Source: Cladochytrium replicatum (taxonomy: Eukaryota > Chytridiomycota > Chytridiomycetes > Cladochytriales > Cladochytriaceae). Taken from it: 64,000 nucleotides of DNA. The first letter of the stretch is position 1, and each line of letters begins with the position of its first letter. Under the pieces are notes generated by a model, which was not told where the DNA came from, did not search any database, and saw only the letters and a list, made by a program, of their open reading frames with translations. Position numbers and translations under genes: made by a program. Shown here piece by piece: positions 1,865 to 64,000 of the stretch. The stretch covers positions 62,001 through 126,000 of the forward strand of contig JAHLKD010000127.1 of NCBI GenBank assembly GCA_025526935.1, written 5' to 3'.

Positions 1865-3903
1865 TCATTCAACAAGTGGCCGGAAGAACAACTTCATCCC
1901 AACCGGACGCAACAAGTTCGCGGGCCCAAACACATACCCATCCTTCCTCGTCTCTTCGCTCAATTCCACCCTAAACGCACGAATCATCATCGCCAGCACC
2001 ACACGTTGCTCCAAAAGCGACATCTGGATCCCCATGCACATCCGCAGTCCACTTCCAAATGGCATCCATCCCGATGCGGTCGCCGTTGCATCGGCAGACT
2101 CGTCAACGAGACCACCGCCCTTCTTGAGCCAGCGTTCGGGAATGAATCTCGTGGGATCAGGGAATACGTTTGGGTCGTAATGCATGTCCATGATGTTGGC
2201 GCGCACGATGGCTCCCTCTTTGATTGTGAAATTACGAATGCTGCCGTCTGGCATGGGAACGCGAATCGGTGTGTCTTCTGAGGCCACACGTAGGCCCGTG
2301 ATCGGAGCAGATGGATACAGTCTGTTTTATGACCGCAATGTGTTGATTTAGGGCCAGTGGAAAGAAATTCATAGGCGCTTACCTCATCGCTTCTTTGATC
2401 ACCGCATTGACGTAGCTACAATGTGCGAGTTGCTGGCTAAACGTTGAAAGGTCCACATTTTCGAGGAGAGCTTCGGACAACAAAGTTGGCTTGCCTGAAG
2501 CGCAAAAAAGCATCACTATGGAATATATATGAACTCATGAGTGCATACCGAAAACTCGGGTGACCTCCTCGCGTAACTTGTCCTGTTCGGTTGGATTTGC
2601 AGCAAGGAGATAGAATGCGGCAGCCAGAGCATTTGCAGTTGTATCGTGCTATCACTTCCAAGTTCAGGAACCACCACTATAAAGAAATGAAATTTAACGT
2701 ACCCCACTACACAACAAGAATATTGACATCAGTAAGACCAAGTCCATGACCCAAGTAACAACCATACTCACGCAACGAAGAAGACACCGATGTTGTCCAC
2801 AATTTCTTTCCGTGTCCACTTTTGCCCATTCACATCATTCTCAACAGCTTCAACCATCAAGTCAACTAAATCAGTGTCTTTCTTCTCATCAAGAACTCCA
2901 ATAGCCATAGACTCTCGCCTCACAGCGAACCGCTCGTCCACAATCTTCTCCATCATCCCTCGAAATTCTCGGGCAACCCTCCACGCTCGCTTGTTTCTTT
3001 CAAGTGGAAGCTTTGAAAAGTAAGGAATCACGACGTTGATCGGTTTCAAAGCGCTTTCCCTGCAAGAAAGATTTGGAAACCTATTGTCCCGGTTGGTTGC
3101 ATAACCATCACCCACATTAATTGATTCCAGATGTCGACATAGTGACCCGGCTTCAATTCATTGGCGTTAGTGATGTTGTCTTGAAGTTCAAGCGATTTAA
3201 AACTGAATGACAGCATCGCCGCACCGAGGACGTCGAGTGTGAGCCTCTGCATGAACGGGTACACGTTGAGCGGAACATCGGCGTGGTGCTTGTTGTGAAT
3301 CGACAAGATCAAGATCAGTTTGCTGACGCAGTTTACAAATGCGGGAACTCTGAATGGTTTTGCGAACGCAGGCCTTGTCACGCTCCTGTGCATTTGATAT
3401 TCCTAAAAAAAGCGACGAAGTGACAAGAATGAATCACATACTCGATTTACGCAGTTTCAAACCCACCTCCCCCACAGTACTTGCAACATTCTCACCAAAA
3501 AGGTAATAAGTGATGGTGGATTTGAATCCGATCAGCCTGGAGTTTCCAAAATCCAGCTTCGGGAAGCGCTCTTAAGTAAACGCAATTTTAAGGAGCAAGC
3601 GATGAACGGGGGGGATTACTTGCTGTTATCAAACTGGGTCCGAATAGCGTCAGGAGTGCACAAAGCCAGACAGCGGATCGGGCCAATCCAATCTTCATAG
3701 ATCTTGATATCTTCCTTACTCAAATGTCTGCGGATTCCGTCCTGGCGCTCAGGAAACGATTTTCCGCCGATCAGGTTGAAGTAAAGGGCTCTGAAGAAGC
3801 CAACTCTCTTAACGGGAGGATCAGAGAACGGTGGTGCCTTGTAATTCAGCACAAAGAGCAGCGAAGCGCCAATGACGGCAGTAATGATAGCGACAGTAAG
3901 CAT
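1865..3903 (-). CDS. Cytochrome P450 (paralogue 1)
   Basis: Exons in gene order: 3624-3903, 3467-3570, 3116-3402, 2772-3059, 2703-2706, 2549-2648, 2383-2494, 1865-2321. They encode 543 aa. The N-terminal hydrophobic anchor (about residues 3-20, AIITAVIGASLLFVL) suggests an ER membrane enzyme. Landmarks in order are the C-helix MHRSVTRPAF, I-helix FFVAGHDTTAN, K-helix KEAMR (ExxR), PERW, and the haem-Cys loop FGSGLRMCMG. It is expected to be a mono-oxygenase needing NADPH-P450 reductase; the substrate is unknown. Two splice features are unusual. Intron 1 needs a GC donor (GCAAGTAA) to keep frame, and exon 5 is only 4 nt (TGGG) and supplies the Gly of the AGxDT motif. All exon boundaries and phases match paralogue 2. 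A xenobiotic or secondary-metabolism role is inference. Confidence 0.93.
2703..2706 (-). other. 4-nt microexon in P450 paralogue 1
   Basis: The exon TGGG is flanked by a 65-nt intron ending GTAG and a 54-nt intron starting GTACGT. It completes an Ala codon and adds one Gly codon, restoring the I-helix motif VAGHDTT. Joining exon 4 directly to exon 6 would shift the frame. Confidence 0.85.
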
Positions 3904-4059
3904 GGCCGCGTCCCCCGGAGACCAGAATCGCGAGTTGGTTTTGAATCAGATCTGGTGGAGCTGTGCCCCCGTTCCAAAAAAATAACAATATTATTAGTGA
4001 TCACCAGGTCACCGAGGTGTGATCCATGATCCGATCACGATGGTATGGACGGAGTCATA

Positions 4060-4337
4060 ACAAACCAACGCGAATGGCACACAGCTCAGCTACTTGTCGA
4101 TCTGGGTTCGACCCAAACCAATCTTCGTAGATCTTTTGGTCCAGTACGCTTAGGTCGGCACGAATCTCATTCTGACGATTCGCAGACCTTTTGGCTAAAT
4201 AAGCTGAAGTAGAGCGCCGTGAAGAAGCTGATCTTTGCCTCCGGAGGGTTGGTGAACGGAGTTGACATTTTGTTCAGCTCGTACATCAGCAGTGCCCCAA
4301 TGATGAGTATAGCGATTGCCACAGTCGTTATGCCCAT
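4060..4337 (-). pseudogene. P450 first-exon remnant
   Basis: Read on the minus strand from 4337, the sequence resembles exon 1 of the neighbouring P450 genes. It has an anchor segment (TVAIAILIIGALL), then STPFTNPPEAKISFF, a frameshift near 4155-4180, then RQNEIRADLS and KIYEDWFG. An in-frame stop and the frameshift break it, and no later P450 exons follow before the 5' end of paralogue 1. It is probably the leftover of a third tandem copy. It is closer to paralogue 2 than to paralogue 1 over the readable part. Confidence 0.8.
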
Positions 4338-4744
4338 TTGTGTAACTTTGTTGTTGCTCCGAGAAATTTTTGCAGTTTATGAAGGGCTGATCATGGAAAG
4401 CTTGATCCCCCACACATTAAGCACTTTGTGGATCCTAACGGAGGTATGTCAGGAACGTACGGCTTAGGAACATGCTTATAGCTGAAACTGTCCAGTGTCT
4501 TTCTCGTTACCACACCTGTGTGATCCTGCCTGATCTGAATCTCAACCACAAAGGCCCTGATGACGAGAACGGCCTCGCCTGTAGACAACATTCAGTGCGA
4601 GATGGTGGTGCTGTCCTAGCAGTTATACGACCTTCCTTCAGTATCACGAGCACTCAAAAGCACTTCAAAATTCTCCAAAATTGTAGCATTCTTAATCCCA
4701 ACCAGAGGCGAAACTGATAATCATAGCATTTATTGCGAAACACT
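4338..4744. other. Intergenic between P450 copies
   Basis: This stretch lies upstream of the dead P450 exon and downstream of paralogue 2. No gene is recognisable. Short stretches recall the region upstream of paralogue 2 (about 6960-7010), as expected if it is the old promoter of the lost copy; that is inference. Confidence 0.35.
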
Positions 4745-6743
4745 TCAGCAAACCAGCGGCCGGAAGAACAGCTTCATCCCAAGAGGACGCAACAAGTTCG
4801 CCGGTCCAAACACATACCCATCCTTCCTCGTCGTCTCGCTCAGCTCAACCCTGAACGAACGGATCAACATCGCCAACACCATCCTCTGCTCCAGGAGCGA
4901 CATCTGGATTCCCATGCACATTCTCAGTCCGCCTCCAAACGGCATCCACCCTGAAGTGTTCGAGGCTGAAGTGTCTCCAGAGTCATCAAAGTTGCTTCCA
5001 CCTTTCTTGAGCCAGCGCTCGGGCATGAAGCGGGTCGGGTCGGGGAACACGTCTGGATCGTATTGCATGTCCATGATGTTGGCGCGCACAACGGCACCCT
5101 TTTTGATCGTGTAGGTGCGCACGCTGCCGTCGGGCATGGGAACTCGGATCGGCGTGTCTTCAGTCGCTACACGCAAGCCCGTGATTGGCACAGATGGGTA
5201 AAGACTAAATGTGATTGGTTACTTGAGGGTAGTAAGTGTAACTAATGTGACCATTACCGCATAGCCTCTTTGATCACACCGTTAACATAACCACATTGAG
5301 CTAGTTGGTGGCTAAAGTTCGAAAGATCCGCATTTTCAAAGACAGCGTCAGACATTGTCGCAGGCTTGCCTAAATTGTAATTAGTGAACAGCACGCATGG
5401 GCTCTACTGGGAACTCGTACCAAAAATGCCAGTGACTTCCGAACGAAGCTTGTCCTGCTCAATCGGATTTGCGGCCAAAAGGTAAAAGGCGGCTGCCAGA
5501 GCGTTGGCTGTAGTGTCGTGCTTTTCAGCAATGAGCAAAAAATGATGATTCAAATGGTCATGCTTCACATACCCCACTGCAAATTCAAAGATCAATAAAT
5601 GAAAAAGAGAATAATCAGCAATACTTACGCAACAAAGAAAACGGCAATGTTGTCCACGATTTCTTTCCGCGTCCACTTTTGTTCAGTCACCGAGTCATCT
5701 ACCGCCTCAACCATCAGGTCAACCAGATCCGTGTCCTTCTTCTCCTGAAGTAAACCGTCTCGCTTTTGCGCAATCCTCTCATCGACGATGTTCTCCATCA
5801 ATCCGCGGAACTCCCGGGCAACCTTCCACGCTCGCTTGTTGCTCTCAAGAGGGAGCTTTGGGTAGTAAGGTATGAGGATGTTGATTGGTTTCAACGCATT
5901 TTCCCTGTCGATAAAATGAGGATTGATTGGAAGGTTTTCGAGCATCACTCACATCAGTTCATTCCAAATGTCGACGTAACGTCCCGGTTTCAAATCAGAG
6001 GCGTTGGTGATCTTGTCCTCGGCTTCCAGCGACTTGAAGTTGAACGACAGCATCGCAGCACCAAGGACGTCCAGAGTCAGCCTCTGCATGAACGGGTACA
6101 CATCCACAGGAATATCGGCGTGGTGCTTGTCGTGTGTTGCCAAGATCTTGACTAATTTGCTGACGCAGCTGACGAACGAAGGTACGCGGAAAGGTTTCGA
6201 GAAAGCAGGCCGCGTCACACTCCTGTGTAGCTGGTATTCCTATGAAGATGAGAAAGATCAACGCAACTCAGTGTCATGGTGCATGTCAGACCTACCTCCC
6301 CAACAGCGCCAACGACATTCTCACCGAACAGATAGTACGAAAATGAGGATTTGAAACCAATCAGACGTGTGTTCGCGATTCCGAGCTTTGGAAAGCGCTC
6401 TGAGAAGACAGAAGGTAATGAGCATGCCCCGATTGGAAAGTACACAGCATCACCCACTGTTGTCGAACTGGGTTCGAATTGCTTCGGGGGTAGTCACGGA
6501 CAGAACTCGAATCGGACCAATCCAATCCTCGTAAATCTTTTTGTCCGCCGCGCTCAGTTTTGCACGAATGTCATTCTGACGCTCCGGGAACGCTTTTCGG
6601 TCAATCAGGTTGTAATAGAGGGCTCTGAAGAAGCTGATCTTTGCCACCGGGGGGTCTGTGAAAGGGGTTGACCTTTTGTTCAGCACGAAGAGAACCAATG
6701 CACCGATGATGAGGGTAGCGATTGCTGCTGTCGCGATGGCCAT
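4745..6743 (-). CDS. Cytochrome P450 (paralogue 2)
   Basis: Exons in gene order: 6458-6743, 6296-6399, 5953-6239, 5629-5904, 5573-5576, 5421-5520, 5258-5369, 4745-5204. They encode 542 aa. Exons 2, 3, 5, 6 and 7 have exactly the lengths of those in paralogue 1 (104, 287, 4, 100 and 112 nt), so this is a tandem duplicate. Motifs are the membrane anchor near residues 3-21, a P450 C-helix LHRSVTRPAF, I-helix FFVAGHDTTAN, KEAMR, PERW and haem loop FGGGLRMCMG. The same 4-nt exon TGGG supplies the I-helix Gly. Intron 1 uses an ordinary GT donor where paralogue 1 has GC. It is a haem mono-oxygenase, probably ER-anchored, of unknown substrate. Confidence 0.94.
5573..5576 (-). other. 4-nt microexon in P450 paralogue 2
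   Basis: The exon TGGG is flanked by two 52-nt introns, one ending TTTGCAG and one starting GTATGTG. It has the same position, sequence and phase as in paralogue 1 and is needed to encode VAGHDTT in frame. Confidence 0.88.
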
Positions 6744-61083: not shown

Positions 61084-64000
61084 TCTGGATCCTCAGGTTG
61101 TGTGTGGGCCTAATGGGACAAAGAAGGCCATGCAGGCAAAGGCGAAGAAAGCGAAGGCGAAAGCGAAAGCAAAGGTTGCGAAGTCGGAGGATATTTGTAC
61201 CTTGCATCCGAACTCGTCTCACACCAATGCTCAATGCCGTAAGCAGGGTGCCTCGGGTGGCTCAAGCAGTAGCTGTGGGAGTAGCAGTTCCACTCGGACC
61301 AGGCAGTCGCAGGACTCCAGGTCGTCCACATCTTCTTCTGCAAAGAAGACAGATCTCACATGCAACTTCCATGCAACTTCTGTGGCAAACGAGGACACAA
61401 GCAGTCGGCGTGTAAACGCTTTCTCACTGCAAAGAGTCTTTGTTTAGACACGGATTTTCGTGCATTCATTGCCAGCCGTGGCGATGCAGGTGATGATTAG
61501 TCGGAGGACGAGTCTACCGCCAAACCGGTGTTGACCAAGAAGGTAATCTTTGACCTTACCCAACCTACTTCTGTTGATGAAGATGCTGACACATACATCG
61601 GAAATATGTTTTCGATAGTGAACGCACACTCGGCACAGAAGGTTGTCCGTGTACATGTTCAAGCAAAGGATCATGTGGGTTTGCTTGATACAGGCGCAAC
61701 TGTTTGGATGACACCTAATCGTCACGCCTTTAGTTCACTGACGTATACGAATGACGAGGACGTGGTGGACCTAGCGGATAGTCATACAATTCCAGTTTGT
61801 GGTTTTGGAGATGTATCTGTAGTTTTACCCAATGGGCGAATTAAGATAATACACAACGCACTTTATGTTCCTGATCTCGAAGACACACTTGCATCAGTGT
61901 GTAGTATCATTGGAGACTCCGGGGACATTGTGAGTTTCACCAAAGACAAGGTTATCCTCACGCACGTGATACGGATGAACACGTTATTATTGGGCGACGG
62001 GAAAGAGATTTGTACTATCTCTATGCTGATGTTAGTACCGTCGGAACTCACCAACCGCGGCATGTGATTGCTCAACCAGCTAAAGCAGTAGCGGTATCCG
62101 CAGAAGGTCTCGATCAGTCGATGGACTTTACGTCCGGTGTACGATCTTCTCACGCGATGGGTCTCGATGTAATGTCAGACAACAGCATTCGTCAAACAAA
62201 CGATGATGAATGTCAACGAGCATCTCAAGATACAGTTGGAGTGAGCACCAACTTATCGCCAGTGACAGTACACGAACTTGCAAAGTTACACCAGCAGTTT
62301 GGTCACATCCACTTACGGACAATCGTTCGAACGGCAGAGAAGCTCAACATCAAAATGCCCAAGGTTGAACCGGATGCATTCAATCTTGTCAACAAATCAA
62401 TTATGCAGAATTGTTTGGTCTGTAGTCGCACGAAGCTGAAGCAGAAGCCGATTTATTCTACAATAAGTCGAGCTCTGAGGAAACTTTTCCGTCTGTTTTC
62501 CGATGTCGTACGTTTAATCTACGACGGACAGAAGAAGAGATATTGGCAGATCATTGTCGACGAACAACCTCGTTTCATCACTATCTACTTCCTGAATCGA
62601 AAGAGTGATGCGGTGGATAGTATGATTCGACATATCGCTGATGTGGAAAATCGCAATCACCCATTACATGTTGCTGAACTACGTTCCGATTCAGGAGAAT
62701 TGATTACTAAACGGTTGATCCAATGGTGCAATACCAAGATTCCTCGCATCCACGTCCACCCAGCTCCTCCGTCAGTGAAGGAACTCGATGGTCTATCAGA
62801 GCGGAATATACAATCGATCAAGTATATGTCGGACGCGATGCTGCTACAAGCTGGACTACCACGAACACTTCAATTCGTGCAACTCTCCATCCTATACGCT
62901 GCGGTCGTCAAGAACGCTACTTTCCATTCAGCTGTGAATGCGATTCCGTACTGTGCTTACCTTGACAAGCGGATAGATTTGGCAACTATCCACGCCTTTG
63001 GAACACTCGTTAGTTTGTGGATCTCACACGAACAAAGGTTGGCGCGCAGAATCCGAGACAAGTCTGAACTAGGTCTGTTTCTCGGATACAAGGGTGAAGA
63101 CCTGAAGATCGTCATAGCACTCAATTTTCGGACAAACACAATAGGCGAATACTTCCATGTTACGTTCCACGAGGGAGTTTTTGTTGGTTATAATCCTACC
63201 CGACAGTTACTCGACGATCTTACGGTACAATATCCACTGAAGGCCGGGACATATTTCGATGTTGATCAAATACCAACCGGGGATCAGGGGGTGCAAGAGA
63301 CGACTGTTGAGTTTGTCTCAGACAATTTCCCGATTTCTACCGTTGCAGACGAAGAAATCGATGAGGATATAAACGACGACCCCATATATTACCGCTTAGA
63401 AGAAGCCGGTGACATGCATGTTGTTGAACATTTACATGGACTAGACGATGATGACCCAGACGATGCTGATTACGATCCAAATGCTGATTTATCGACTCCA
63501 CAATCCATTACTGAAGAATCTCCGAATTTGTCTTCCGTATCTCCTGTAGAGGAATATGATGCACAACTCGAAAGTGATCTTCAATTCATTGGAGAAGATG
63601 TCGACGAAGCGTATGCAGCAAGAAAACAAAAATGTCAAGCAAGTGCAAATTTGTTGAACGCCAAAAGGAAACAAAATTCCTTGTTTACCCGATCCGTTCC
63701 TAATATCGATTGGACCCTGAAGGCCGATTCCTCATATCCAACACAACCAATTGTGAATGGAAATATACGGACTGCACCAAAGACTCTTCGTGAGGCTTTA
63801 TACGATCCGATGAGGCTCCATTCTGGTTAGCGGCGATGAAGGAGGAAGTCACACAACTAGTCGGCAACAATACTTGGGCCGAAACGTTTTTACCTGATGG
63901 ACGGAATTTATTATCGGGCAAATGGGTTTTCACATATAAGCTTGACGAACATGGCAATATTACTCGATTCAAAGCACGTTGGGTCGTACGAGGATTTGCA
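61084..64000 (+). pseudogene. Ty1/copia polyprotein, decayed, cut by window end
   Basis: In order: a Lys/Ala-rich linker, a zinc knuckle CNFCGKRGHKQSAC (about 61385), a stop at 61498-61500, the aspartic protease motif LLDTGATVWMTPN (61681), a frameshift near 62010, the pre-integrase block LHQQFGHIHLRT (62289), integrase core (VDEQPRFITIYFL, LRSDSGE, GLSERNIQ), FLGYKGED, an acidic linker, a further frameshift near 63830, and the start of the reverse transcriptase (NNTWAETFLPDGR, GKWVFTYKLDEHG, RFKARWVVRGFA). The order protease-integrase-reverse transcriptase defines Copia. RNase H and the 3' LTR lie beyond the window. At least two frameshifts and one stop make it inactive. Confidence 0.9.

Follow-up and report, generated by a model that had tools for sequence, protein, structure and literature searches.

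A predicted 4-nucleotide microexon in the oxygen-binding motif of five cytochrome P450 genes of Cladochytrium replicatum, and small exons of other P450 clades at the same motif

Can an exon of four nucleotides (nt) be a regular part of a coding sequence, and how would it come to lie in the very motif with which a cytochrome P450 binds oxygen? This question is raised by two tandem P450 genes on the minus strand of the window, by which we mean the whole 64,000-nt stretch of contig JAHLKD010000127.1 of the fungus Cladochytrium replicatum (positions 62,001 to 126,000) that was analysed. Each gene has eight coding exons, and in each of them exon 5 is predicted to consist of the letters TGGG. We propose that this exon, which takes the form NGGN in a clade of five genes, is a constitutive coding microexon that arose through two intron gains in a gain hotspot and whose flanking introns are removed singly, and we give this reading a probability of roughly 0.75. 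The features on which it is built are the following:

1865..3903, minus strand, gene 1, whole coding span: P450 of 8 exons and 543 amino acids, PF00067 E 2.6e-65
2772..3059, minus strand, gene 1 exon 4: ends F F V GC (TTC GTT GC)
2707..2771, minus strand, gene 1 intron 4: 65 nt, GTGAGT...GTGTAG; its retention would bring an immediate in-frame stop
2703..2706, minus strand, gene 1 exon 5: 4-nt microexon TGGG, the last base of an Ala codon and a Gly codon
2649..2702, minus strand, gene 1 intron 5: 54 nt, GTACGT...TGATAG
2549..2648, minus strand, gene 1 exon 6: starts H D T T A N A L (CAC GAT ACA ACT)
4745..6743, minus strand, gene 2, whole coding span: P450 of 8 exons and 542 amino acids, PF00067 E 2.1e-64
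5629..5904, minus strand, gene 2 exon 4: ends TTT GTT GC
5577..5628, minus strand, gene 2 intron 4: 52 nt, GTAAGT...TTGCAG
5573..5576, minus strand, gene 2 exon 5: 4-nt microexon TGGG
5521..5572, minus strand, gene 2 intron 5: 52 nt, GTATGT...GAAAAG
5421..5520, minus strand, gene 2 exon 6: starts CAC GAC ACT ACA

Joining of GC, TGGG and CAC reads A-G-H, and both genes yield A-G-H-D-T-T. Further signature motifs of P450s are ExxR and FxxGxRxCxG. The spliced products carry AGHDTT, KEAMR and FGSGLRMCMG or FGGGLRMCMG, which together with the PF00067 matches identifies them as cytochromes P450. Their motif aligns with AGHETT in P450s of solved structure, VFFVAGHDTTA being matched by IFLLAGHETTA of 7wzl. 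The AGxxT motif of the P450 I-helix is described in PMC1828051. The original prediction had placed a TGGG exon at 2706..2703 and 5576..5573, had assigned to it the Gly of the oxygen-binding motif and had described introns of 52-65 nt with GT and AG ends around it; the sequence and the aligner described below bear out all of this, the two introns measuring 65 and 54 nt in gene 1 and 52 nt each in gene 2. It had also called the exons identical in the two tandem genes, which is true of those two and understates the case, as the exon is present in five genes.

A six-frame Pfam search of the same genome gave 111 P450 matches, and labels such as L019 denote other P450 loci of that genome. Genes were modelled with our own splice-aware protein-to-DNA aligner, which permits exons of any length, and an internal exon of 15 nt or less was called a microexon. 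Genes 1 and 2 served as each other's query, while L019, L020 and L021 were queried with gene 1. These five make up the clade as found, and the 4-nt exon is present in 5/5 of its members, all of which were given the eight-exon structure by the aligner. Its size and its internal position (exon 5 of 8) make it a microexon under this definition. It reads TGGG in genes 1 and 2, GGGG in L019, TGGA in L020 and CGGG in L021, so that the changes affect nothing but third codon positions, those of Ala and Gly, and are synonymous, the pattern of a sequence under coding constraint. The arrangement AG/NGGN/GT provides canonical splice sites on both sides in 5/5 genes, and the flanking introns of the five measure 52-78 nt. 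L021 has roughly 50% identity with the genes of the window, the value for gene 2 being 52%. In the predicted products of the whole clade the microexon completes the Ala codon and supplies the I-helix Gly of A-G-H-D-T-T.

Because the hand-made query models of genes 1 and 2 already contained the Gly, the aligner was rerun with independent queries, namely L037, L038 and L041, in which the motif is unsplit, and the intronless L006. The 4-nt exon was recovered in 20/20 runs; in 1/20 (L020 with L006) it was joined to a wrong upstream donor, that of intron 3 instead of intron 4. We also shuffled the interval between exons 4 and 6 by dinucleotides, keeping the outer splice sites fixed and requiring that both introns be at least 40 nt long. 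Of 2000 shuffles made for each gene, 39, 0, 26, 5 and 9 contained a usable AGNGGNGT block, and the 4-nt exon block exceeds chance. Conservation of the exons is set off from that of the introns as well. Exon identity to gene 1 is 0.754 for gene 2, 0.742 for L019 and 0.691 for L020, against intron-core identities of 0.656, 0.584 and 0.596 and shuffled-intron identities of 0.593, 0.589 and 0.583 for the same pairs. The introns of L019 and L020 no longer resemble those of gene 1 beyond the shuffled level.

Could the same genes be spliced without a microexon? We scanned for single introns of 40-159 nt between GT donors from 60 nt before the end of exon 4 and AG acceptors lying no more than 60 nt inside exon 6, a scan that is not exhaustive. 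Removal of one intron of about 100-155 nt through another join, with a product that lacks NGGN or with the genes being pseudogenes, gains some credit from the joins that do keep the frame: a donor at -5 offers one in four genes, a donor at -14 in gene 1 and L019, and a donor at +4 in all five, and the in-frame stop-free single-intron joins number 3, 7, 9, 2 and 1 in the five genes. All of the stop-free joins start at donors upstream of the end of exon 4 and omit NGGN. Such upstream joins remove at least three helix residues, and the others insert intron sequence. From the -14 donor an upstream Gly would precede HDTT at the cost of six deleted residues, while the -5 donor (GTTGCG or GTCGCG) is poor and adjoins GTRAGT, and the single-join scan found no upstream donor usable in all five genes. 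With the splice sites of the microexon masked, a donor shifted by +4, inside GTRAGT, restores the frame in 5/5 genes and replaces the Gly codon by a stop, which is TGA twice and TAA three times. NGGN between AG and GT is, on the other hand, retained in five genes. We therefore reject the single-intron models for the five genes, as the frame-keeping joins found either lose NGGN or meet a stop, and consider splicing without the microexon very improbable. The original prediction had stated that the coding phase works only if TGGG is spliced in; this stands for the keeping of the motif and does not stand for the frame, which other joins can also keep. Another arrangement considered is the stwintron, in which both introns and the 4 nt would be excised as a single nested intron by two successive reactions. 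The layout is similar, with two short introns closely packed in a fungus and a stepwise removal, but stwintrons consist of nested introns with no exon between them (PMC9024468, PMC6616335), and full removal here would place CAC directly after GC and destroy the frame in 5/5 genes, which makes this explanation scarcely credible.

Another possibility, which the original prediction had put forward, is that the 4-nt exon is a regulated switch, skipped under some condition with a frameshift and loss of the enzyme as the result. As had been predicted for the window genes, skipping of NGGN shifts the frame, with a stop 23-65 codons past the motif in all five genes, and retention of intron 4 leads to a stop at once in 5/5; a glucose-dependent 20-nt switch microexon is also on record from Trichoderma Xlr2 (PMC11121469). 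The frame break, however, follows from a length that is not a multiple of 3 and is true of any such exon, and the immediate stop is automatic wherever a phase-2 intron with a GTRA donor follows GC. No sequence sign of regulation was found, all variation in the exon is synonymous, intron 4 starts with GTRAGT in 5/5, and the human 4-nt microexon of MPC1 is constitutive even when decay is blocked (PMC9929638). A switch is for these reasons unlikely, and constitutive inclusion of the 4-nt exon is what the sequence leads us to infer.

For a constitutive microexon between introns of 52-78 nt, intron definition, which the original prediction had suggested, is a sensible mode and the most likely one. 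Each short intron would be recognised across itself and the two would be removed one at a time, the first removal fusing the 4 nt to an exon of normal size, so that U1 and U2AF need not share the 4-nt exon. The donor of intron 4 is GTRAGT in 5/5 genes versus 5/30 other introns of the same genes (Fisher p 0.0008, the genes being related to one another and not independent), a bias that points to intron 4 being defined before intron 5 and handing the 4 nt to exon 4. The idea that microexons as a class come with a strong upstream donor was rejected, for it holds in the 4-nt clade and fails in a second clade, with 9-nt exons, to which we return below.

Several observations weigh against the constitutive 4-nt microexon or narrow its support. 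The analysis is based on the genomic DNA of one genome, and inclusion in the mRNA is deduced from it. At gap-free positions the two window genes still share 77% of intron 4 and 70% of intron 5, so that this pair alone would not reveal constraint, and the intron comparison with gene 1 covered gene 2, L019 and L020. Exon 7 of L021 (about 2601-2712) has a one-base length difference and with it a frameshift, which may reflect decay, a sequencing error or a boundary missed by the model. The aligner preferred the microexon over the +4-donor model by just 2.3 to 11.4 score units; the margin is small because the stop penalty is mild, and the case for the microexon is consequently carried by the stop codons and by its conservation among the paralogues rather than by score. 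Finally, the upstream donors of the 9-nt clade are GTRAGT in 5/12 cases versus 19/77 of the others.

What the original prediction missed is that differently bounded microexons are present at the same motif in other P450 clades. In all, 48 models were made; L052 and L053 (score below 350) were omitted, which left 46 models, the window genes included. The first 20 loci were mostly taken because their Pfam match began close to the motif or because they looked like the window genes, 20 more followed, and the final 8 were chosen for their resemblance to the 9-nt clade. The two L012 genes and the second L013 gene were modelled separately and stand outside the 46, and L040 was left out as a decayed copy which aligns only with eight frameshifts and a stop. 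Among the unmodelled loci, judged by eye from the Pfam table, 13 have one match spanning the motif (one of these bears a stop), eight seem to have few introns or none and two are of insufficient length for a judgement. The 46 models contain 237 internal exons, and all 18 of those that are 12 nt or less in length lie at the AGxxTT motif, with a length of 4 nt in five cases, 9 nt in twelve and 12 nt in one. A thirteenth 9-nt exon belongs to the second L013 gene. In the 9-nt clade (13 genes: L013, L014, L049 and L056-L064) the exon encodes G-H-E or G-H-D, as in A/GHE/TT, both bounding introns are in phase 0, and the third bases vary (GGG CAC GAG, GGA CAT GAC, GGC CAC GAG, GGT CAT GAA and others). 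The 12-nt exon of L016 has phase-2 introns on either side. L045 is within the 46 models with its motif unlocated, so that motif statistics refer to 45; an intron within the motif is found in 39/45, which is not a genome frequency, as the share is inflated by loci picked partly for a Pfam match that begins near the motif.

The distribution of intron positions was mapped on 37 models and seven intronless loci (L001, L002 and L004-L008, L003 being unused), 44 rows in total. Introns longer than 200 nt were omitted from the map, as were nine frameshifted models (L021, L023, L042, L044, L048, L050, L055, L058 and L059), which were kept in the tree, the exon-size census and the motif-intron survey. 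In columns filled in at least 60% of the 44 rows, 10 of the 76 distinct intron positions fall within the 18 nt of AGxxTT, where 1.02 would be expected, and 0/5000 random placements reached 10 motif positions. The offsets are 0, 2, 3, 4, 5, 6, 10, 11, 12 and 17, with 0, 5 and 11 supported by one model each. Elsewhere an 18-nt window holds at most 5 positions, or at most 4 in columns filled to at least 85%, with 3 for the K-helix stretch and 4 for the haem loop. Even if the 13 unmodelled loci with a match spanning the motif are taken to add 104 unique off-motif positions (76 becoming 180), 10 hits still have P 2.4e-5, and with only seven motif positions counted the same padding gives P 0.006.

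In a tree of 53 P450s both the 4-nt and the 9-nt clade have support of 100/100. Forcing the two into one clade is rejected (approximately unbiased test, p-AU 6e-6), and so is one clade of both with L016 (p-AU 2e-4). Near the 4-nt clade the motif is uninterrupted in L037, L038, L041 and L054, and in L039 an intron lies at offset 0. Within the clade of L016 there is no motif intron in L028 and L042, one at offset 17 in L022 and L023, and two in L016 itself, a zero/one/two series which fits stepwise gain. The intron pattern at the motif is an observation; its probable origin is that two short introns came to sit 4 nt apart inside a six-codon motif that would be a hotspot of intron gain, with the 9-nt and 12-nt microexons acquired independently by other P450 clades at the same place.

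Two points make the picture of separate gains less secure: the place of L016 beside L022 and L023 is weakly supported (81/52), and ancient introns that were later lost or drifted may be the origin. One or two ancestral introns could have slid by a few bases in each clade, or been lost in some, with no separate gains at all. Several positions are indeed 1 nt apart (offsets 2, 3, 4, 5, 6 and 10, 11, 12), and exactly two motif introns occur in three clades. Yet no alternative GT-AG or GC-AG placement within 6 nt that gives the same product was found for any motif intron, L037, L038, L041 and L054 near the 4-nt clade are free of the intron and that of L039 is at another place, and L028 and L042 are intron-free in a clade where L016 has two. 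Sliding is in our opinion doubtful, with somewhat more to be said for it than for a regulated switch. As to where gained introns might have come from, similar pairs number 15 among 280 P450 introns; 14 of these are within a clade, and the sole cross-clade pair is a 15-nt match between the motif intron of L023 and a non-motif intron of L039. Introners, which leave near-identical intron copies at sites that are not orthologous, were rejected as the source, as the motif introns of different clades share no similarity among the P450 introns compared, and a proto-splice sequence was rejected too, since flanking bases vary from site to site when judged by eye. The broader proposal, that in this fungal lineage the DNA of AGxxTT is a hotspot into which introns have inserted again and again, at ten or more separate positions in different P450 clades, and where paired landings left 4-, 9- and 12-nt microexons carrying catalytic residues, appears to us evenly balanced between being right and wrong.

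Microexons this small are already known. Exon 2 of human MPC1 is a constitutive 4-bp microexon, and it resembles the P450 exon in its size, in a length that is not a multiple of 3 and in its constitutive inclusion, which is probable in our case (PMC9929638). According to the same source MPC1 has long flanking introns and uses exon definition through a 67-nt upstream stretch, while the P450 exon is fungal, has introns of 52-78 nt and lies in a catalytic motif. The plant genes APC11 and VPS55 have 1-nt microexons which are likewise tiny and frame-breaking, kept across paralogues and species and overlooked by annotation, and VPS55 also keeps GTRAGT donors; the available text of PMC8831610 deals with plant genes and describes no recurrence at one motif across clades of a family. 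Closest in gene family are the P450s of the fungus Phanerochaete chrysosporium, with microexons (the shortest exon being 6 bp, or 2 amino acids) and short introns, for which a source of alternative splicing was proposed; as described there the microexons are spread over genome and families and are not gathered on the oxygen-binding motif (PMC1184071). Xlr2 of Trichoderma is also a fungal case with third-position changes and GT-AG flanks, but its microexon is of 20 nt, is regulated by glucose and belongs to a transcription factor (PMC11121469). For P450 introns of four ascomycetes low positional conservation was stressed (PMC1828051). No P450 I-helix intron hotspot and no chytrid microexon was among the matches listed by our search, most subscription journals being outside it, and recurrence of microexons at one catalytic motif is likewise absent among the matches listed.

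Some further observations concern the genes themselves and their relatives. Exon 1 of gene 1 and the region between the two genes were read as follows:

3903..3624, minus strand, gene 1 exon 1: followed by an intron 1 read as GC-AG
3571-3623, minus strand, gene 1 intron 1: best read GC-AG (GCAAGT); gene 2 has GTGGGT at the same place
4176..4328, minus strand, putative third-copy remnant between genes 1 and 2: exon-1-like, 43% identity to gene 1 residues 2-52

The P450 array may once have had a third copy, because of the exon-1-like remnant. At L019 positions 4575-5150 on the plus strand hold a decayed copy of the same P450, comprising the first half only and lying in divergent orientation next to the intact gene. 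L040 (C5:727500-732500) is a P450 relative with several frameshifts and a stop in which the Gly of the motif is missing. In L037, L038 and L041, relatives of the window clade, the haem-Cys loop is on a separate 23-nt exon. The same genome has 73 chitin synthase matches, the model for which also matches 4/14 control genomes, and 7 radial-spoke matches, mostly at one place, against 0/14 control genomes; both are in keeping with a flagellated fungus, and the word chytrid used in the original prediction fits.

An exon of 4 nt comes close to the smallest that a spliceosome can use. Gene finders tend to miss such exons, so that 19 P450 genes of this fungus (5 + 13 + 1) could be mispredicted at their catalytic motif. 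Related genes with none, one and two introns in the same 18 nt form a natural series for the birth of a microexon, and this series is relevant to the question of whether certain sequences attract intron gain.

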